Shown here: piece after piece, positions 6,480 through 22,544 of the stretch
Layout: every line of letters begins with the position of its first letter
How positions within the stretch are numbered: the stretch's first letter is position 1
Assembly (NCBI RefSeq): GCF_002733955.1
Contig: NZ_NVXQ01000001.1
Location: 434,001 to 498,000 of the forward strand
Length of the DNA stretch: 64,000 nucleotides
Reading direction: 5' to 3'
Origin: Hoeflea sp.
Lineage (GTDB): Bacteria > Pseudomonadota > Alphaproteobacteria > Rhizobiales > Rhizobiaceae
The notes under the pieces: model-generated
The model's database searches: none
What the model was told of the DNA's origin: nothing
Seen by the model: the letters and a program-made list of their open reading frames with translations, nothing else
Position numbers and translations under genes: made by a program

Positions 6480-7661
6480 GTGTCAGACAGTTTCCGCGAC
6501 CTCGAACGGCCTGATGGTGGCCGCCGCAAGGATGCCGTGATGATGGCCGCGATCAGCGGTCTCGAGTGCCTCGATCACCCGACTCGTCAGGATCTGGTGC
6601 GCTTTTCCCGGCTCTTTATCCCCCTCTACAAAACTGCAAGCCAGGAGGCCCGCCGCACAGCCTCGGCAACCCTGTCACGGCTGTCGAGATTGCCTGAGGA
6701 TGTGGCGGAGATGCTGATCAACGAACCGATCGCCATCGCAGCGCCGTTTATCGTTCATTACCCGCGGCTTAGTGAAACCGCGCTGACCCAGGCGGTGATG
6801 CGCCATGGTGCGCCGCATGCCCGCGCGGCCGCGCGGCGCTCGGACCTGTCGCCGCAGGCGATCGCCAAGCTGCAGGAACTCAAGGATCCATCCGTCGACA
6901 GTCTGCTGGTGCTGCGCGGGATGATTCCGGCACCGGCACAGCCGCTCGCACAACCGGAGTCTCAAACACAGCCGGCAAAAGCTCCGGCCGCGCCGCCTTC
7001 CCCTTCGCGGCAGAGCGTCACCGCGCCGCCGCTCGATCCGAGCGAACGGCTCAGGACCCAGCTCAAGGCGCTTGTGGCTGCGAGCCCGGCGCCGAAATCG
7101 CCGCTCAACCGGCCTACGAGCCCGCGCAAGCTTGGCAACACACAGCAAGCCGCCGCTCCCGCCCTTGCCGAACCGGCCACGGCATCAGCCAGGGCCACTG
7201 CACGACGCAGGGTTGGAGACGTGCGGCTGGCGCAGCTGGCGCGGCACGCCCAGACGGACCAGGAATCCTGGTTTGCAACCGCGCTTGCCGATGCCATGGG
7301 GGCAAGCTTCGCGCTTGCCGAACGCATCATGATGGATCTGTCTGGCCGGCAGCTGGCCACGGCGATGATCGGGCTTGGCGCACCGGAAGACACCATCAAA
7401 TCGGCGCTCGAGAGCTTCTTTCCGCATCTGGCCAAACCATCGGCCCGCTACACGCTGGCGACCGACCTGATCGAGGAACTCGACAGCGACAGCTGCGCCG
7501 CGCGGCTTCAGTCCTGGCAGCGCGCCGACAGCTACACCAATGGCGCCGCCTCCCATGTGCCCGCGCTTGCCGACGGCAAGCCGGTGCGTCAGGACCGCGA
7601 CCAGCGGGTCTCCCCGCGCGATGTGCGCGACCGTATGCTGCCCTCGCGCAAGACGGGTTGA
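6480..7661 (+). CDS. DUF2336 domain-containing protein
   Basis: About 393 residues. The N-terminal third (LECLDHPTRQDLVRFSRLFIPLYKTAS...LSRLPEDVAEMLINEPIAIAAPFI) is the alpha-helical DUF2336 repeat pattern found in alphaproteobacteria. The middle is Pro/Ala-rich and probably disordered (residues about 155-240), and a second helical region follows. GTG at 6480 was chosen because AAGG lies eight bases upstream; TTG 6456 or GTG 6471 are alternatives. Function is unknown. Confidence 0.8.
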   Translation: MSDSFRDLERPDGGRRKDAVMMAAISGLECLDHPTRQDLVRFSRLFIPLYKTASQEARRTASATLSRLSRLPEDVAEMLINEPIAIAAPFIVHYPRLSETALTQAVMRHGAPHARAAARRSDLSPQAIAKLQELKDPSVDSLLVLRGMIPAPAQPLAQPESQTQPAKAPAAPPSPSRQSVTAPPLDPSERLRTQLKALVAASPAPKSPLNRPTSPRKLGNTQQAAAPALAEPATASARATARRRVGDVRLAQLARHAQTDQESWFATALADAMGASFALAERIMMDLSGRQLATAMIGLGAPEDTIKSALESFFPHLAKPSARYTLATDLIEELDSDSCAARLQSWQRADSYTNGAASHVPALADGKPVRQDRDQRVSPRDVRDRMLPSRKTG

Positions 7662-7703
7662 GCGGGCGCAAGCACCGTTGAGATACAGTGAGCAAGAAGC
7701 GCG

Positions 7704-7982
7704 CTAACGGCCCGCTTTTCTCCATCCCGCCGCGCGCGCGTCAGCTTCCGAGCAGAACCACCGCTCACCATATTCGGGCCGGATGATGGTCGATCGGTAG
7801 TCCTTCTGACCGGGCACGTGGTAGATGTGCTCGCCGGTGCTGATACTGACGTTTCCCTTAATCGCACATTCCTTGCCGGAAACACTCGATTGCGGCGACT
7901 GTGACAGGAGGCGACTGACAGCCGTTGGCGCAACGAATGCGAGGGCAGAGACGACGACGACCGAAGCAGCGAACCGCGACAT
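7704..7982 (-). CDS. Secreted sunset-domain-like protein (ExoI-like annotation)
   Basis: A 92-residue protein with an N-terminal signal helix (FAASVVVVSALAFVAPTAV) and the compact motif CAIKGNVSISTGEHIYHVPGQ followed by GERWFCSEADARAAGWRKA. This pattern recurs in rhizobial proteins labelled ExoI-like and in the so-called sunset domain; the two Cys and His may bind a metal. Probably periplasmic. A GGGGGG stretch upstream of the ATG at 7982 could serve as ribosome site. No function is established. Confidence 0.75.
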   Translation of the reverse strand: MSRFAASVVVVSALAFVAPTAVSRLLSQSPQSSVSGKECAIKGNVSISTGEHIYHVPGQKDYRSTIIRPEYGERWFCSEADARAAGWRKAGR

Positions 7983-8080
7983 GATACCCCCCGAGCCTGA
8001 GTTACAGGCTCGAACCATGCACACCAAAGAATAATCCCTGCTGACGATAATCCTTAAAATTGTAGCATTCAGATCTCGCG

Positions 8081-8863
8081 TCAGTCCCCAATCAGCCTGA
8101 TCGGGCTGCCGACCTCGATGACGCCATCGTTGAGCACCTCGGCATAGATGCCCATGTCGAAATGGCCATAGGCCTTCTTCAACAGCTTGGGCACCATGAT
8201 GTCACGTTCGGCCGTGTCGGGATTGACCTCGGTGGCGAGACAGCGCTGGGTCCGGTGCAGCACGTTGAAGGTCACCTCACCCACCTGAATGTGGCGGCCG
8301 ACCAGATCGAGCTCGCTGAAGGCGGGCCAGCCCTCAAACACGATGTTTCCGCGAAAGCGACGCGCGTCGACCTCCCGCGAGATCTCCTTCTCAAACGCCC
8401 GCACCGAATCCAGGTTGATGAAGGAAATGGCGTTCATCAGCGTGGTCGAGGCCACGGACGCATCGGTGAAGCGATGCGGAAAGGCCGAAGCGAAGAACGG
8501 GACTTCCTCATCCTTGAGGTCGAGCAAGTCGGTGAGAAACCGGCTGGCCTCGCTGGCCCCTGTTTCGGTGTTCATGTCGAATTCAAGCTTCGGCTCGGCG
8601 CTGGTGCTGATCGTCAGGATCCTGGACCGGGCGTCAAACGCCGTTTCGAGACCGGCAAGCTTGGCGTGCTGCAGCAGAACGATAAAGCGGTTTTTCGGCA
8701 GCGGTTTGGGATCGGAGGGGTTAAAGCCGCTGTTTTTCTTGGCGAAACCGAACAGGCGATCGCCGGGGAAGCCATCACCGGCTGTGAGCACGGCCTGGTC
8801 ATGGCTTTGCGGACTGAGCCCCTTGATCGGGTAACTCGACAGCGAGAGGATTTTTCCGTTCAT
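8081..8863 (-). CDS. MOSC domain-containing protein
   Basis: A 260-residue protein with an N-terminal MOSC beta-barrel (ILSLSSYPIKGLSPQSHDQAVL...FPGDRLFGFA) and a C-terminal MOSC domain with the expected Cys in RTQRCLATEVNPDTAERD and later MGIYAEVLNDGVIEVGSPIRL. MOSC proteins carry sulfur or molybdenum-cofactor chemistry, as in mARC and YiiM. The substrate is unknown. It follows the amidase gene by 29 bases on the same strand and may be co-transcribed. Confidence 0.88.
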   Translation of the reverse strand: MNGKILSLSSYPIKGLSPQSHDQAVLTAGDGFPGDRLFGFAKKNSGFNPSDPKPLPKNRFIVLLQHAKLAGLETAFDARSRILTISTSAEPKLEFDMNTETGASEASRFLTDLLDLKDEEVPFFASAFPHRFTDASVASTTLMNAISFINLDSVRAFEKEISREVDARRFRGNIVFEGWPAFSELDLVGRHIQVGEVTFNVLHRTQRCLATEVNPDTAERDIMVPKLLKKAYGHFDMGIYAEVLNDGVIEVGSPIRLIGD

Positions 8864-17979: not shown

Positions 17980-18757
17980 AGTTGCGCCTGGGCACGGCAT
18001 AGTGCCTTGCCAGTGCCGCCAGCGCGGTGCGCAACATCAGCTTGGCTGAACGGGCCGGCCATTGGCGCTCACGCTCGACCTCACTCAAGCCTTTGAGAAA
18101 ACAGCAGACATCAACCAGCACACCGGAGAGTTCCGGCCCGACCTGAGCCAGCGCCGTATCCACCCGCTCACGGGCCGCCATGGCGGCGTCGGTGAGTTCG
18201 GCGGCACCACCGGCCGACCCGGGCTGCCGCCCCGCGCGCACCGGTTCCCAGCTCTGGCCCAGCGAAGGCTGCATCTGTCCGCGGGTGAAATCGCTGCGCA
18301 ATCTTTCACCGGCCTCGACCTGAGAGGGCTCGAGAAACAGATCGCCGCCCCTGCCCTTGATCCGCGCCAGAGCCGCTAGGGGCGATTCGGCCAGATTGAC
18401 GGAAACATGCCCGTGGTCGGGATCCGGACGCGTTGTCAGCGTGCGGTGCTGATCCTGAAACGCGCTGTCGGGATCGGCAAGCCAGCGCTTGAGCGCCGAG
18501 CGGCCTTCCGTCGTGGCGGAACAGGACAGCAGCCCATCTGCCTGTTTTTCGGCCAGGATCAGGCCTTGTGCAAGCGCCACCCGGAAAATCCGGATGTTGG
18601 TTTTTCGCTCGGTTCCGTTTTCGCGCAGCAAGCACAGCTGGCCCGTGCGTGACGCGAGCTCGACGGCCTGGCATTCTGCCGGGGCTCGCGCGACAAAACC
18701 CACCAGTGCTGCCAGCGCCTTGCGGGAGCGGCGCGCCTCAGAGCTCTGCATTGTCAT
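17942..18757 (-). CDS. DUF6456 domain protein
   Basis: About 271 residues. An N-terminal winged-helix-like part (ALAALVGFVARAPAECQAVELAS...TATTEGRSALKRWLADPDS-like) leads to the C-terminal DUF6456 region (ESPLAALARIKGRGG..FLEPSQVEAGERLRSDFTRGQMQPSLGQSWEPV...VDVCCFLKGLSEVERERQWPARSAKLMLRTALAALARHYA). It probably binds DNA. It starts inside the end of the DnaA-like gene (ATG 18757 versus stop at 18738), indicating coupling. This two-gene unit recurs in rhizobia; its role is not known to me. Confidence 0.8.
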   Translation of the reverse strand: MTMQSSEARRSRKALAALVGFVARAPAECQAVELASRTGQLCLLRENGTERKTNIRIFRVALAQGLILAEKQADGLLSCSATTEGRSALKRWLADPDSAFQDQHRTLTTRPDPDHGHVSVNLAESPLAALARIKGRGGDLFLEPSQVEAGERLRSDFTRGQMQPSLGQSWEPVRAGRQPGSAGGAAELTDAAMAARERVDTALAQVGPELSGVLVDVCCFLKGLSEVERERQWPARSAKLMLRTALAALARHYAVPRRNSTRQPAPPPHAP

Positions 18758-19325
18758 GGTCCAGCGGTGCGAAGACGGCCTTGATGCAGCGCTCGCACTG
18801 CTCGACAAAACGGTCATAGGCGGCTTCGTCCCGCCGATCTTCAACCACGGAGCAGGCATGGACAACGGTTGTGCGGTCGCGCCCGAACGCTATGGCGATG
18901 CTCTGGTAGGGCACTGACAGCACCACGTGACTGAGATACATGGCAATCTGTCGCATGTGGCATCGTGGCCTGCGCCGTGCAGCCCCTTCGGGCAAATCCC
19001 GTTCGCAGGCAGCAGCGAACAGTTCCGCCACCAGCCGCCAGGTTATGCGGCAGCGCAAGGTGTCGATCATGCTGGCATGACGGGTGCGCTGTTTTTGTTG
19101 CGCAGGCGCAGAGGAAAGGGCTGACATGGTTGCCGGGGTTTCGCCAACGGCCGATGTGGCGGGAGTGATGCTGCAATCGACAAGACAGGCGATCGCCAGC
19201 GCCGTATCATTGCCGAGCAAGGTACCGGACAAGACCTTTCCCAGATCCGGGTTGCGTTTTCCGACCCCGGACTTCGCTGCGGTGGCGGGACGGCGTGAGC
19301 TGCTCAATGTGGATTGACGGGCCAT
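18738..19325 (-). CDS. DnaA domain IV-like helix-turn-helix protein
   Basis: About 195 residues. The C-terminal half resembles DnaA domain IV: RQIAMYLSHVVLSVPYQSIAIAFGRDRTTVVHACSVVEDRR, matching the DnaA-box-binding signature (GRDHTTV-HA in DnaA). No AAA+ domain is present, so it cannot be the replication initiator; it may compete for or recognise DnaA-box-like sites. The ATG at 19325 follows AGGAG. An IS1595 element is inserted 31 bases upstream, replacing the original promoter region. Confidence 0.82.
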   Translation of the reverse strand: MARQSTLSSSRRPATAAKSGVGKRNPDLGKVLSGTLLGNDTALAIACLVDCSITPATSAVGETPATMSALSSAPAQQKQRTRHASMIDTLRCRITWRLVAELFAAACERDLPEGAARRRPRCHMRQIAMYLSHVVLSVPYQSIAIAFGRDRTTVVHACSVVEDRRDEAAYDRFVEQCERCIKAVFAPLDHDNAEL

Positions 19326-19347
19326 GATGAAAATCTCCTTTGATAGG

Positions 19348-19355
19348 AATATTTT
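19348..19355. repeat. Left 8-bp target-site duplication of the IS1595 element
   Basis: aatatttt, identical to 22222-22229. Eight base pairs is the expected duplication length for IS1595-family insertion. Confidence 0.88.
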
Positions 19356-19380
19356 CCGCATATTATACTTTGCGTACCCA
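19356..19380 (+). repeat. Left terminal inverted repeat of the IS1595 element
   Basis: 25 bp, ccgcatattat to gcgtaccca, exactly matched in reverse complement at 22197-22221. It contains a perfect outward-facing TATAAT (minus strand, 19367-19362), 37 bases from the DnaA-like gene's ATG. Confidence 0.9.
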
Positions 19381-19487
19381 TCGCCAAAATTGGCATACAA
19401 GATGTAGATGCGACCACGGGACATTTATGGAACACCCGCCTATCTTGTGCCGCAGTTGGCGGAATCTTAGAATCATTGTAAAGTAGA

Positions 19488-19519
19488 AGCGGAATCAGTG
19501 GTGAGACACTGATTCCGCT
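19488..19519 (+). ncRNA. Perfect 13-bp hairpin in the leader of the HNH gene
   Basis: agcggaatcagtg and its reverse complement cactgattccgct surround a six-base loop gtgaga. Two further potential stems follow before the HNH start codon: ccccg...cgggg around 19523-19549 and gggc...gccc around 19577-19593. The leader as a whole (about 19480-19615) therefore looks structured. Whether it acts as an attenuator, a binding site for the nuclease or an independent RNA is unknown. Confidence 0.45.
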
Positions 19520-19615
19520 ATGACCCCGGCCATGTGGATGAGCCGTCGGGGCCAAACGGGAGGTTCACGTTGAACCGGGCATCGGCTCTGCCCTTTCGAG
19601 ATGAAAGGATGAGCC

Positions 19616-19921
19616 ATGACTGGCTTGTTTGAAGCAATAAGCAACGAAGAGGCCCGCAAGATTGCGGTGTGGTCCAAGGGCCATGAGGTTGACGGGATGC
19701 CTCCTGCCGAATGGCGGCGGGACGACTTCGGAAATTTGACTTCGTACACCGACTACGGGAAATCAACGTCTCCCCACGGTTGGGAAATCGATCACATTAC
19801 GGCCAAGGCCATCGGCGGGCCCGACGACATTTTCAACCTCCGGCCCCTCCGTTGTGCCGCCAATTCCGCGCTCGGCGGATTGCTTGGCGCGTTGATCAGC
19901 GGAGATTTGGGGAAACGGTAG
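19616..19921 (+). CDS. HNH endonuclease, passenger of the IS1595 element
   Basis: A 101-residue compact HNH nuclease. The beta-beta-alpha metal motif is GWEIDHITAKAIGGPDDIFNLRPLRCAANSA: the DH pair, the Gly-Gly turn, and Asn in NLRPL, with the last His position taken by the NS region. There is no separate DNA-binding domain. ATG 19616 follows AAGGATGAGCC. It lies inside the transposon behind a structured leader, and its last 159 bases are overlapped by an antisense reading frame. It could cut DNA to aid mobility or defence; that is inference. Confidence 0.83.
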   Translation: MTGLFEAISNEEARKIAVWSKGHEVDGMPPAEWRRDDFGNLTSYTDYGKSTSPHGWEIDHITAKAIGGPDDIFNLRPLRCAANSALGGLLGALISGDLGKR

Positions 19922-20062
19922 GTCTGCCGAAACCACCATCTTGATGATCGCGTCAGGGTTGGCCTCGTCTGTGATGGGGTCAACGTATAGCCCCATACCT
20001 TTTAGGGTTTCGTAGAGCCGCAGATTGCGGCTCGCCTTGTCCATATGCTCGGGGATAATCAA
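19763..20062 (-). CDS. Hypothetical protein, antisense overlap with HNH gene
   Basis: A 99-residue reading starting at TTG 20062, with GGAGG eight bases upstream. The N-terminal half (PEHMDKASRNLRLYETLKGMGLYVDPITDEANPDAIIKMVVSADLP) has the character of a real protein. The C-terminal half lies opposite the HNH gene and may be only passively open. It shares a promoter gap with the divergent transposase gene. No family was recognised. It may be a true passenger gene or partly a shadow. Confidence 0.4.
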   Translation of the reverse strand: MIIPEHMDKASRNLRLYETLKGMGLYVDPITDEANPDAIIKMVVSADLPFPQISADQRAKQSAERGIGGTTEGPEVENVVGPADGLGRNVIDFPTVGRR

Positions 20063-20080
20063 GAAAAATTCCTCCGATAC

Positions 20081-20117
20081 TTGACGTACCCAATCTCGTG
20101 ATTATATAAATAATCAC
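20081..20117. promoter_or_regulatory. Transposase promoter region with perfect palindrome
   Basis: A TTGACG (20081-20086) precedes an AT-rich -10-like region near 20104-20110. Over it lies gtgattat-ataa-ataatcac (20098-20117), an 8-bp perfect inverted repeat. The string gtaccca (20086-20092) also occurs at the inner edge of the terminal repeats, so transposase binding and autoregulation are possible. Confidence 0.45.
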
Positions 20118-20131
20118 AGGGAGATAAAGCC

Positions 20132-21082
20132 ATGTCGTCCATTCTTTCAGATCGCCACTTTCATAACGAGGCCGCAGCCTATCGCTTTGTCGAGGCTCGC
20201 GTTTGGCCAAATGGCCCTGTCTGCCCGCATTGCGGCGGCGTGGAGCGCATCAGCCCCATGAAAGGCAAGAGCACCCGGATTGGCACCTACAAGTGCTACC
20301 AGTGCCGCAAGCCATTCACCGTGAAGATCGGGACCATCTTTGAAAGCAGCCATGTTGCAATGAACCTGTGGCTACAGGCGATTTTCCTTATGGCCTCGTC
20401 CAAGAAGGGCATCAGCGCAAATCAACTGCACCGGACCCTTGGTGTAACTCTCAAGACTGCTTGGTTCATGGCGCATCGCATTCGTGAAGCCATGCGCGAA
20501 GGTAGCCTTGGTCCTCTTGGCGGCGAAGGCAAAACCGTTGAGGCCGACGAAACCTATCTTTGGAAGGCTACCGATCAGAGCTTGTCACCGCAGCGCAAGG
20601 GCCGTCCGCTTCTCAAGCGCAAGGCTGGCACCAATAACAAGCGCGTTGTCGTTGGCCTGATCGAACGCGGCGGTTCAGTTCGCACCTTTCACGTCAAGCA
20701 GGCAACCAAGGTCAATGTTGCGGAGCTTGTTTCGCAGAATGTCGCCATTGAAAGCGCCCTCTACACCGACGAAAGCCGCCTCTACACCGAAGTCGGCAAG
20801 ACCTTCGAAACCCACGAGAGCGTCAAACACTCCGCTGGCGAGTATGTCCGTGGCGAGGTCCATTCCAACACCATCGAAAGCTATTTCTCCATCTTCAAGC
20901 GCGGTATGCGCGGCACCTATCAGCATTGCGCCGAAAAGCACCTGCACCGCTACCTTGCTGAATTTGACTTCCGCCATAATCGCCGTGTAGCGGTTGGGGT
21001 GAATGACACCGACCGCGCCGACAGCATCCTTGGCGGCGTCGTTGGCAAGCGCCTGACCTACGAAACGACTCTTACAAGGTGA
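20132..21082 (+). CDS. IS1595 family transposase
   Basis: A 316-residue transposase. The N-terminal zinc ribbon is seen in CPHCGG...YKCYQCRKPFTVKIGTIFESS. The DDE/DDN-type catalytic core begins at VEADETYLWK; the second carboxylate lies in YTDESRLY and the region HSNTIESYFSIFKRGMRGTYQH follows, as in the ISXO2-like family. Full length and intact. ATG 20132 follows GGGAG. It is the only transposase in the element and should move it. Confidence 0.93.
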   Translation: MSSILSDRHFHNEAAAYRFVEARVWPNGPVCPHCGGVERISPMKGKSTRIGTYKCYQCRKPFTVKIGTIFESSHVAMNLWLQAIFLMASSKKGISANQLHRTLGVTLKTAWFMAHRIREAMREGSLGPLGGEGKTVEADETYLWKATDQSLSPQRKGRPLLKRKAGTNNKRVVVGLIERGGSVRTFHVKQATKVNVAELVSQNVAIESALYTDESRLYTEVGKTFETHESVKHSAGEYVRGEVHSNTIESYFSIFKRGMRGTYQHCAEKHLHRYLAEFDFRHNRRVAVGVNDTDRADSILGGVVGKRLTYETTLTR

Positions 21083-21090
21083 GGAACCCT

Positions 21091-21288
21091 ATGGCGTCTG
21101 GCGACCATCGAGATACAAGCCAAAGCCCAAAGCCAACCGGCAAAAAGGCTAAGAAGCTTACCCAAAAAGAGCAATCCGAGCGGTTTATTCAGACCGCTCG
21201 GGAGCTTGAAGCGGATGAGTCGGGAGCGTGCTTCGAGGACGTGATACGGGGGATAGTCAAGCCGAGAATTGCTTCAGATCCACAATAG
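21091..21288 (+). CDS. Small charged passenger protein of the IS1595 element
   Basis: A 65-residue Lys/Glu-rich protein (KPTGKKAKKLTQKEQSERFIQTARELEADESGACFEDVIRGI). Similar short proteins are often seen right behind IS1595-type transposases in alphaproteobacteria, but no function is known. ATG 21091 has GAGGAA upstream, within the end of the transposase gene; GTG 21079 is an alternative. Its last 32 bases overlap the convergent DUF3800 gene. Confidence 0.7.
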   Translation: MASGDHRDTSQSPKPTGKKAKKLTQKEQSERFIQTARELEADESGACFEDVIRGIVKPRIASDPQ

Positions 21289-22180
21289 TGGCGTCGGGTC
21301 TCTGTCCTCGTATCAGAGTTTTAATCGCTTCAACTATCTGGTCCTCGGTAAAGGTGATGTGCGCGCGGGGGTATCTGAGCGGATCTGCGCGCCAATCTCC
21401 GAAACTCAGATCGCGTAGCGATTCATCTGCTATTCCTGCAGTCGTCCATTTGCGTATCCACCATGCGATGAAATCCGCAGCTTGCAGCGGTAAAAATTCG
21501 TGATCCTTCTCGAAGCGGGGGCGGTGCCCGTATGTACTCCTAATGTCTTCCGATCTTTCGGAAATGTAATCATCCCATGCCATCTCTATTTTTTTACGCT
21601 CCGATTGTTCGTCGAAGAAAAAATCAACTCGTTCCGACAGAGGAAGGATTGAGGCCATCTCCTTGGATTGGCGGTGGGTATGAAACATATCCATTAATGC
21701 TCGGAAAACAAACATGTAGGTGTTTCCCACGTAGTCCCATTCAACTCGAGCGCCAGGGACATGAAGACGCGCGCGGGCATTCCTCAGGTCTTCCTGTAGA
21801 ATGGCGCAGGAAAGCCCCATCACTACGTGGTCCTCAATCAATCGGTAAAGTCCTGCAACGCGGTCCATATGATATGCGGCCATTTCGCTCATCTTAAAAT
21901 GGTAGTGCCCCTTGTCGGTCACACGTCCCCATCGCGGTAATGCCTTTTCCCATTCCCGAGAGAACGCCGCCCACTTTTCCGCAGTCGATATGAACCCAGC
22001 CAAGACGTAAGCGCCGGAACCGTGCGGCTCGTAACTGTCGTCCATGTAGGCTTGTAGAAACATGAATAAGCGTCCGCCTGCCTTTGCTGGTGAAACGCCC
22101 GATACCTCCGCCCAAATTTGATCGGAAGCCTTCGACTCCCCCCAAGTGTGCGCACTTATTGCAGGAATTTCATTCCACAC
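21257..22180 (-). CDS. DUF3800 domain protein, passenger of the IS1595 element
   Basis: A 307-residue protein. The DUF3800 pattern begins at FLQAYMDDSYEPHGSGAYVLAGFIS and continues with WAAFSREWEKAL, VDFFFDEQSERK and, near the end, EFLPLQAADFIAWWIRKW. Conserved acidic residues (YMDDS, FFFDE, AADF) suggest a nuclease-like fold, but activity is unproven. The GTG start at 22180 has a full AAGGAGGT six bases upstream, right next to the right terminal repeat. DUF3800 genes are frequent cargo of mobile elements. Confidence 0.85.
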   Translation of the reverse strand: MWNEIPAISAHTWGESKASDQIWAEVSGVSPAKAGGRLFMFLQAYMDDSYEPHGSGAYVLAGFISTAEKWAAFSREWEKALPRWGRVTDKGHYHFKMSEMAAYHMDRVAGLYRLIEDHVVMGLSCAILQEDLRNARARLHVPGARVEWDYVGNTYMFVFRALMDMFHTHRQSKEMASILPLSERVDFFFDEQSERKKIEMAWDDYISERSEDIRSTYGHRPRFEKDHEFLPLQAADFIAWWIRKWTTAGIADESLRDLSFGDWRADPLRYPRAHITFTEDQIVEAIKTLIRGQRPDATIVDLKQFSA

Positions 22181-22196
22181 CGTACCACCTCCTTAT

Positions 22197-22221
22197 TGGG
22201 TACGCAAAGTATAATATGCGG
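22197..22221 (-). repeat. Right terminal inverted repeat of the IS1595 element
   Basis: 25 bp, exact reverse complement of 19356-19380. It also carries an outward TATAAT (plus strand, about 22210-22215). Confidence 0.9.
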
Positions 22222-22229
22222 AATATTTT
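22222..22229. repeat. Right 8-bp target-site duplication
   Basis: aatatttt, identical to 19348-19355. Confidence 0.88.
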
Positions 22230-22544
22230 CTTACATGATATGCAGATGACGAGGACGTGCAGCCACCCACCGGCTACAGCCTGACGTTGATATTTCGATG
22301 TTTTTGGGTTTTCAACGGCATTTAATAAGGAATTTTTTCCTCACGCTTACTCGAAAACACCCGGAGCGGCTTGCGGTGACCGGGCCGGTCGGCCCTGCCA
22401 AACAAAAAACCGCAGCCCAAGGGCTGCGGTTTTTGCAGTCTGCTGATCAAGTGAGCTCTTCAAGCATCGCCTGCTGTGACTTCTGCCTGCACCGGCAGGG
22501 GTTGACGAACAAACCGGAGCCAAGCCGAAGCTTGCAACAGGAGC
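22230..22544. other. Displaced upstream region of the DnaA-like gene
   Basis: 315 bases between the IS right end and mucR. Before insertion the left part was the upstream region of the DnaA-like gene at 18738-19325. It holds the bidirectional terminator at 22402-22434. I saw no gene. Confidence 0.5.
22402..22434 (-). terminator. Terminator of mucR (bidirectional shape)
   Basis: ccgcagccc and gggctgcgg (22410-22429) form a 9-bp stem flanked by A-rich sequence on the left and T-rich on the right. It lies about 110 bases after the mucR stop codon. Confidence 0.75.

Follow-up and report, generated by a model that had tools for sequence, protein, structure and literature searches.

A 2,866-bp IS1595-family transposon of Hoeflea sp. 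with HNH and DUF3800 passenger genes

The window considered here, a stretch of 64,000 nucleotides from Hoeflea sp. (NCBI RefSeq assembly GCF_002733955.1, contig NZ_NVXQ01000001.1, positions 434,001 to 498,000 of the forward strand), contains at 19356-22221 an intact 2,866-bp element of the IS1595 family, with perfect 25-bp terminal inverted repeats (TIRs) and a duplication of the target sequence AATATTTT. Read from the left, it consists of a TIR, a structured stretch, an HNH gene, a convergent open reading frame (ORF), a former left end, the transposase gene, a 69-aa ORF, a DUF3800 gene and the right TIR. It is probably an intact transposon of the passenger-bearing (tIS) type, combining a fixed engine, a right-hand cargo that is swapped between relatives and a cargo bay captured on the left, with passengers that are most likely defence or addiction factors.

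The two TIRs are identical as inverted repeats at 25/25 positions, and the likeness ends beyond base 25. In a chance control, the search for a TIR pair of at least 19/25 together with an exact 8-bp target-site duplication (TSD) was positive in 42/49 real loci and in 1/49 mismatched loci, where the right half had been swapped from another locus. The strongest evidence for a real insertion is provided by 15 empty sites. The right flank was compared with 41 genomes, the own genome included, and matched in 35; matches were obtained in 16 of the 17 other genomes of the genus (G302 being the exception). The junction could be aligned in 15 of 24 right-flank loci, all from the same genus, and each of them shows uninterrupted GGAATATTTTC with one AATATTTT. 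An empty site with exactly one AATATTTT is hence present in 15/17 sampled congeners, the sixteenth right-flank match (L116) not being alignable over the junction. A preliminary description of this DNA had proposed a complete IS1595-family transposon with passengers instead of a plain insertion sequence, bounded by perfect 25-bp repeats and by the 8-bp AATATTTT on both sides. This is borne out by the transposase matches in Pfam and NCBIfam, the TIRs, the TSD and the empty sites, and the unoccupied site does equal one AATATTTT, as that description had expected, in the 15 same-genus loci. The G+C content of 1-kb stretches over the element is 0.52-0.57 vs 0.57-0.67 in nearly all other parts of the window. 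The element is present as a single copy in its own genome, and a DNA search of a plasmid collection with the whole element matched 40 records, none across more than 80% of it. An Rfam scan of 19200-22400 gave no family better than E 1, with one match at E 2.2, under the gathering score.

Regarding the engine, the transposase exceeds the curated Pfam cut-offs for both the DDE_Tnp_IS1595 domain (120 bits vs 27) and the N-terminal zinc ribbon PF12760 (45 bits vs 25.4), and scores 203.4 bits with the NCBIfam IS1595 model NF033547 (cut-off 75). A search of solved structures by sequence gave nothing for the transposase or for the DUF3800 protein. Relatives were taken as the best 80 of 411 transposase matches in public genomes, at 56-78% identity. 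Of these 80 loci, 59 have both a TIR pair and an exact 8-bp TSD; for 9 further elements, which lack an exact TSD, the ends were set by hand according to the likeness of the TIRs, giving 68 elements; 12 loci remained unplaced, several being cut by contig ends. The 68 elements measure 1,505-4,627 bp (median 2,322), so that the cargo, which had been called large for an element of 2.9 kb, is nothing exceptional here. The A+T content is 85% for the 59 TSDs vs 38% for their loci, and the relatives occupy different targets, with different TSDs. The small ORF that follows the transposase gene was matched by tblastn in 40/81 sequences, at most 200 bp after the transposase gene in 38 of them, and has no family match in Pfam, NCBIfam and PADLOC scans.

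All 68 related elements with placed ends have one or more ORFs of at least 100 aa in addition to the transposase. Close relatives have the block of left end, transposase and small ORF in common and diverge beyond it. When elements were compared in pairs, the common block stopped 99-167 bp beyond the transposase match in 16/17 pairs and 32 bp before it in L040/L056; an additional common block of 25-52 bp was present at the right end in 8/17 pairs. The cargo is also common to the pair L023/L029, and L040/L056 have one extra internal piece in common. Similar transposases can be accompanied by passengers from different clusters, as in L057/L077, L059/L074, L021/L026 and L061/L072. A minus-strand ORF starts at most 75 bp from the right end in 42/69 elements, the window element included, and in the latter this ORF is the DUF3800 gene. 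At the same border, the motif GTGCTA occurs near the cargo start codon, about 25-60 bp inside the right end, in 13/57 right borders vs 0/57 left borders (mean of 0.87 and maximum of 4 in 200 shuffles). It accompanies unrelated passengers, yet several carriers are related through one passenger cluster, which inflates the count.

The nature of these passengers is diverse. Among the best 25 of the 27 families found by Pfam (E<=0.01) on 99 cargo ORFs, DUF3800 accounts for 13 ORFs, GmrSD_N for 5, HNH for 4, and RelA_SpoT, SocA_Panacea and DUF6932 for 2 each, while DNA_methylase, Vsr, MethyltransfD12, PIN, PemK, Abi_2, HEPN and others are represented by single ORFs. The best 25 of 119 cargo matches to PADLOC models comprise PD-Lambda-5 A and B, PDC-S33, PDC-M63, PDC-M04 and type II methyltransferases; a Dcm match and a RelA_SpoT/PDC-S33 match are also found among the passengers of relatives. 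Many cargo ORFs gave no match; when 20 of them were scanned singly, 8/20 (from L008, L005, L015, L031, L045, L030, L042 and L080) had no Pfam match at E 0.1. To call this cargo rich in defence-type genes is a description of the sampled elements and not an enrichment figure.

Two relatives may be mentioned for their passengers. A 4.6-kb IS1595 element (L036:5938-10564) carries three plus-strand genes, namely a cytosine methylase, a weak PD-Lambda-5_A match and a Vsr endonuclease. In another (L062), the passenger at 6944-8509 has an AlbA/Schlafen-type domain and matches the PADLOC model named pAgo at E 5.6e-42.

The right-hand passenger of the window element matches DUF3800 (PF12686) with 40.7 bits against a cut-off of 21. 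The structure prediction that the preliminary description had recommended yielded an RNase HII-like fold (AlphaFold, mean pLDDT 78.7, pTM 0.80), for which the top Foldseek matches in the PDB are RNase HII (1eke, E 2.3e-4, query TM 0.37) and RNase HIII (E 1.4e-3, TM 0.35), the RNase HII/HIII matches together spanning a query TM of 0.33-0.37. D47 and D236 are invariant over an alignment of 12 rows, 11 of them from retrieved loci, in which L031 later gave no Pfam match and L072 fell under the cut-off. We infer a putative nuclease because of the RNase HII-like predicted fold and the conserved acidic residues. Thirteen DUF3800 proteins are found in 12 of the 68 related elements. On a transposase tree of 81 rows built by a quick method, with 15 DUF3800 carriers (including the window element as well as L012 and L016, which have no placed ends), carriage changes state 14 times over 71 counted rows; DUF3800 was therefore gained or lost many times. 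In an independent sample, PF12686 occurs at 32 places in 28/150 genomes of the order. Thirty of these loci were compared, one being that of the window; among the other 29, the non-own loci, 3 adjoin an IS1595 transposase, and all three are enclosed by TIRs of 20-23/25 with an exact 8-bp TSD. DUF3800 was present in 1 record of the plasmid collection, with no IS1595 among its listed features, and in no contig of the viral collection. No Rfam family reached the gathering score in the element or within the bounds of nine DUF3800 relatives, the suhB found in L071 lying outside its element. Two further occurrences of the family were observed: one IS1595 element (L025:5931-9636) holds two different DUF3800 genes in tandem, and the window's genome has a second DUF3800 gene at G000:C15:2529-2825.

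The left side of the element differs from that of standard relatives. In these, a -35-like TTGAC is part of the left TIR in 55/65 cases vs 7/65 for the right TIR, and the left end lies a median of 67 bp ahead of the matched transposase start. In the window, that place is occupied by the half-repeat ATACTTGACGTACCCA, while the end in use, 712 bp further out, is of the right-end type and identical to the right end (25/25). That the outer end is the one really used is proved by the empty site. Similar left extensions can be found in L037, L042 and L045, where an internal (A)CTTGACGTACCCA is combined with an outer left end without TTGAC, L045 having no exact TSD. On the transposase tree, which also labelled L041 (otherwise uncounted, with an internal half-repeat and no outer end found), the left-extended state requires three changes and the window element stands apart from the clade of the other cases; the splitting of the left end therefore occurred at least twice on this tree. 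L052 and L076 were rejected as further cases, since they have far left ends, yet no internal TTGACGTACCCA was found. No remnant of a second transposase was found in 19381-20060.

The cargo of this left extension is the HNH gene and its convergent partner. An HNH nuclease and a DUF3800 protein had been named as cargo beforehand: DUF3800 stands above its cut-off, whereas the HNH protein falls just below (19.4 bits, curated cut-off 21.4) and is recognized by its motif. The motif, W-E-x-D-H-I ... N-L-R-P-L-x-C-x-x-N, is retained in two homologues, with E57, D59, H60, N74 and N83 invariant among the three sequences, residues which we take to form the metal site. HNH homologues are rare in the order (4/297 genomes) and in a sample of the class (8/289), the own genome being included in both; in plasmid, phage and viral collections they were found in 2 plasmids, 1 phage record and 3 viral contigs. 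The two small proteins without assignment in the preliminary description prove to be the 69-aa ORF and the ORF antisense to the 3' end of the HNH gene. The latter is 53% identical to an ORF beside the L087 HNH gene. Over 47 codons, the two differ 16 times at the first, 13 times at the second and 30 times at the third codon position, a pattern that supports the N-terminal half of the window's ORF as a coding region. Only this half can count as evidence of a gene, because the C-terminal half also matches the antisense of another HNH gene (L095). The N-terminus of the partner was detected in 2/249 genomes of the order, both times beside HNH, and in 1/289 of the class sample, namely the window's own genome. 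In a different family of the order, the HNH gene and its partner likewise adjoin the remnant of an IS1595 transposase; this is the one place, among 14 other HNH places examined, where such a transposase occurs in the DNA compared. At L125:1336-1942, a gene pair that presumably resembles the toxin-antitoxin HigB/HigA lies directly ahead of the transposase remnant.

Ahead of the HNH gene, the 139-nt leader folds at a z of -4.65, compared with -2.25 and -3.20 for two homologues. The three leaders have no confidently alignable common sequence, and the strongest hairpin corresponds to a minus-strand terminator score; a candidate RNA part was set aside on these grounds. The positions of all features are given in Table 1.

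Table 1. Features of the element and its borders, in window coordinates.
Feature	Position	Strand	Basis
Target-site duplication, left copy, AATATTTT	19348..19355	.	Sequence; single copy in 15 same-genus empty sites
Outer left TIR, 25 bp, right-end type (no TTGAC)	19356..19380	.	TIR comparison with standard relatives
13-bp perfect hairpin ahead of the HNH gene; terminator-like score on minus-strand reading	19488..19519	.	Folding, terminator score
Small HNH protein, 101 aa, left cargo	19616..19921	+	Pfam HNH below cut-off; motif
ORF of about 99 aa with a TTG start, convergent to the HNH gene, whose 3' end it overlaps	19763..20062	-	Homologue beside L087 HNH; codon pattern
Remnant of standard left end: ATACTTGACGTACCCA intact (transposase -35 region), outer 9 bases altered	20068..20092	+	Sequence; standard relatives
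IS1595-family transposase, 316 aa, zinc ribbon and DDE_Tnp_IS1595	20132..21082	+	Pfam, NCBIfam
Conserved small ORF of the group, basic product of 69 aa; overlaps the transposase stop	21079..21288	+	tblastn
Right cargo: DUF3800 protein of 307 aa, reading inward from the right TIR, with a predicted RNase HII-like fold	21257..22180	-	Pfam, AlphaFold, Foldseek
Right TIR, 25 bp; inward AAGGAGG, then GTG start of DUF3800	22197..22221	.	Sequence
Target-site duplication, right copy, AATATTTT	22222..22229	.	Sequence; empty sites

The insertion is intergenic and AT-rich, between a gene with a DnaA_C domain (by Pfam), of which it lies just upstream, and mucR. The site itself, ATAGGAATATTTTC (19340-19355 / 22222-22250), is strongly conserved in the 15 same-genus loci and may be a regulatory site; the stretch around it is conserved throughout the genus. 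The insertion may have altered the promoter or the start of the DnaA_C-domain gene, because the open frame of the latter (18738-19424) now extends into the element and the left TIR region (19340-19380) bears an outward TATAAT. A candidate promoter spanning the left junction, with TTGATA in the flanking DNA and TATACT in the TIR (10/12), was rejected, with 2 sites in the region vs 2.6 expected in shuffles.

With regard to the origin of the left extension, the element could be composite or nested, i.e., made of two inverted IS1595 copies moving as one unit, the left copy being reduced to its right end. An outer left end that is a perfect copy of the right end, lacks TTGAC and has the old left end inside fits such an origin, which can be taken as one route to the extension; yet the likeness of the ends stops after base 25, and the left bay holds no detected remnant of a second transposase, so that this explanation seems plausible without being probable. 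The outer end may also have formed de novo. A classical composite transposon with two flanking insertion sequence copies was rejected, there being one transposase and an end similarity limited to 25 bp. It can also be asked whether the HNH gene and the ORF antisense to it hitch-hike by chance, as host DNA that was enclosed when the new left end formed and that has no selected function. Their association with an IS1595 transposase in only the window and 1/14 other places would agree with this, as would the wide occurrence of the HNH family away from such transposases, for instance in viral contigs. However, this is rather unlikely given that the same pair recurs by a transposase remnant in a different family, that the N-terminus of the partner stands beside HNH in each of its two occurrences in the order and that the partner has a coding pattern.

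Other explanations concern the role of the passengers. They may serve the transposon itself, the RNase H-like DUF3800 protein and the HNH protein acting in transposition or target processing, in a self-serving unit of no benefit to the host. While DUF3800 does recur next to a variety of IS1595 transposases, always in the same convergent arrangement, and the second genome sample contributed three more such elements, 56/68 related elements have no Pfam-matched DUF3800, the family is without an IS1595 transposase at 26/29 non-own loci, and it is the 69-aa ORF, not DUF3800, that is retained with the engine as its companion, which makes this role improbable. A homing-like function, in which the HNH or the DUF3800 nuclease would cut the empty allele and drive copying into it, had been raised in the preliminary description from the presence of two putative nucleases within the element. 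The transposase-type ends with their 8-bp duplication, the AT-rich intergenic target, the empty site in 15/17 sampled congeners and the relatives at different targets with different TSDs all speak against it. Homing finds no support here, because of this duplication at such a site, the A+T-rich TSDs of the relatives and the frequent occurrence of DUF3800 without IS1595, and it is to be regarded as extremely unlikely.

The preferred reading is that of a tIS-type transposon with exchangeable cargo. An IS1595 element has inserted between the DnaA_C-domain gene and mucR, duplicating AATATTTT. The transposase and its 69-aa companion ORF make up the engine, together with the promoter half-repeat of the left end. 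In the right cargo bay, one gene begins just inside the right TIR and reads back to the transposase, which is the layout of DUF3800 in the window, and among the sampled relatives other genes have taken its place in the bay, many of them of a defence or a toxin-antitoxin type. For the second, left bay, the observed arrangement suggests that the element acquired a further end outside its old one, with the sequence of the right end, and thereby probably captured the HNH gene with its convergent partner, the former left end being retained as the putative promoter of the transposase. The passengers would most likely act, singly or as pairs of genes, in defence or addiction, and so repay the cost of keeping the element. 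Such a role is a best guess, made because the passengers of sister elements are of these types. The defence-type role advanced in the preliminary description is accordingly upheld in part: the restriction, PD-Lambda-5 and toxin-antitoxin passengers of relatives and the RNase HII-like predicted fold of DUF3800 agree with it, while the cargo of the window has no PADLOC match.

Several points weigh against this reading. The cargo counts rest on the best 80 of 411 transposase matches, and for 9/68 elements the hand-set ends lack an exact TSD. The ORF counts include any chance ORFs, so that some of the 100-aa ORFs may be spurious, and L051, with one 113-aa ORF, is doubtful. None of the five window proteins matched a PADLOC model at E 0.1 or better, nor did any of ten DUF3800 or neighbouring passengers that were scanned apart. 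The structural matches of DUF3800 have low TM-scores (0.37, 0.47), with just one match at E 0.001 or better, and outside the element DUF3800 mostly adjoins ordinary genes, type I specificity subunits making up 3/64 neighbour ORFs.

A broader proposition can be put forward tentatively. This IS1595 branch may be an obligate cargo platform in Alphaproteobacteria, whose fixed engine and right bay, with a shared expression border, would exchange defence and toxin-antitoxin genes, DUF3800 being the commonest recognisable one; the window copy would show how a second bay arises, its left end having been split in two, so that the half-repeat with the promoter stayed inside and an outer end devoid of a promoter captured the HNH pair. 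If true, single defence-type genes would be shuttled by some transposons that, at about 2-4.6 kb, are among the smallest autonomous ones, and their short, easily delimited cargo bay would be a place to find uncharacterised genes of this type. DUF3800, an RNase H-type family, would be the first candidate in view of its clear boundary and conserved acidic residues. The left extension would show concretely, and in repeated cases, how an insertion sequence can grow into a larger transposon.

Passenger-bearing IS1595 elements are well established, and the window element is a variant of this kind: its HNH and DUF3800 genes lie between TIRs delimited by a TSD and an empty site. The 2009 founding paper on IS1595 by Siguier, Gagnevin and Chandler reportedly describes passenger-bearing subgroups. 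In the open literature, IS1595 and DUF3800 were not found together, which is weak evidence for novelty, subscription journals being mostly outside the scope of the search.

The family is characterised by an 8-bp TSD and a zinc finger, with plain members harboring a single transposase gene (PMC8101967). The window element has the transposase domains, the TIR pair and the 8-bp TSD in common with these plain insertion sequences but differs by its further genes. MTnSag1 (tISSag10) and tISCpe8 combine an IS1595 transposase, 25-bp TIRs and 8-bp direct repeats with passenger genes; both have been reported from Firmicutes as mobilizable, and the cited title on tISCpe8 names it a lincomycin resistance element (PMC5704250). 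Unlike these, the window element has nuclease-like passengers and a second, left cargo bay. In Pfam and NCBIfam scans, no relaxase was found among its ORFs. For DUF3800, an RNase H fold has been predicted with AlphaFold in a TPR-DUF3800 protein beside a Cas12a2 branch (PMC10910872). The window protein has the same predicted RNase H-type fold; it differs in being a single-gene transposon cargo without TPR or CRISPR. Within its own genome, the element can be compared with a second, different IS1595 element (G000:C17; L126:3965-6309), which has another TIR type, other cargo and no left extension, and which likewise has an IS1595 transposase, 25-bp TIRs (23/25), an exact 8-bp TSD (AAAAATAT) and one passenger of about 222 aa.

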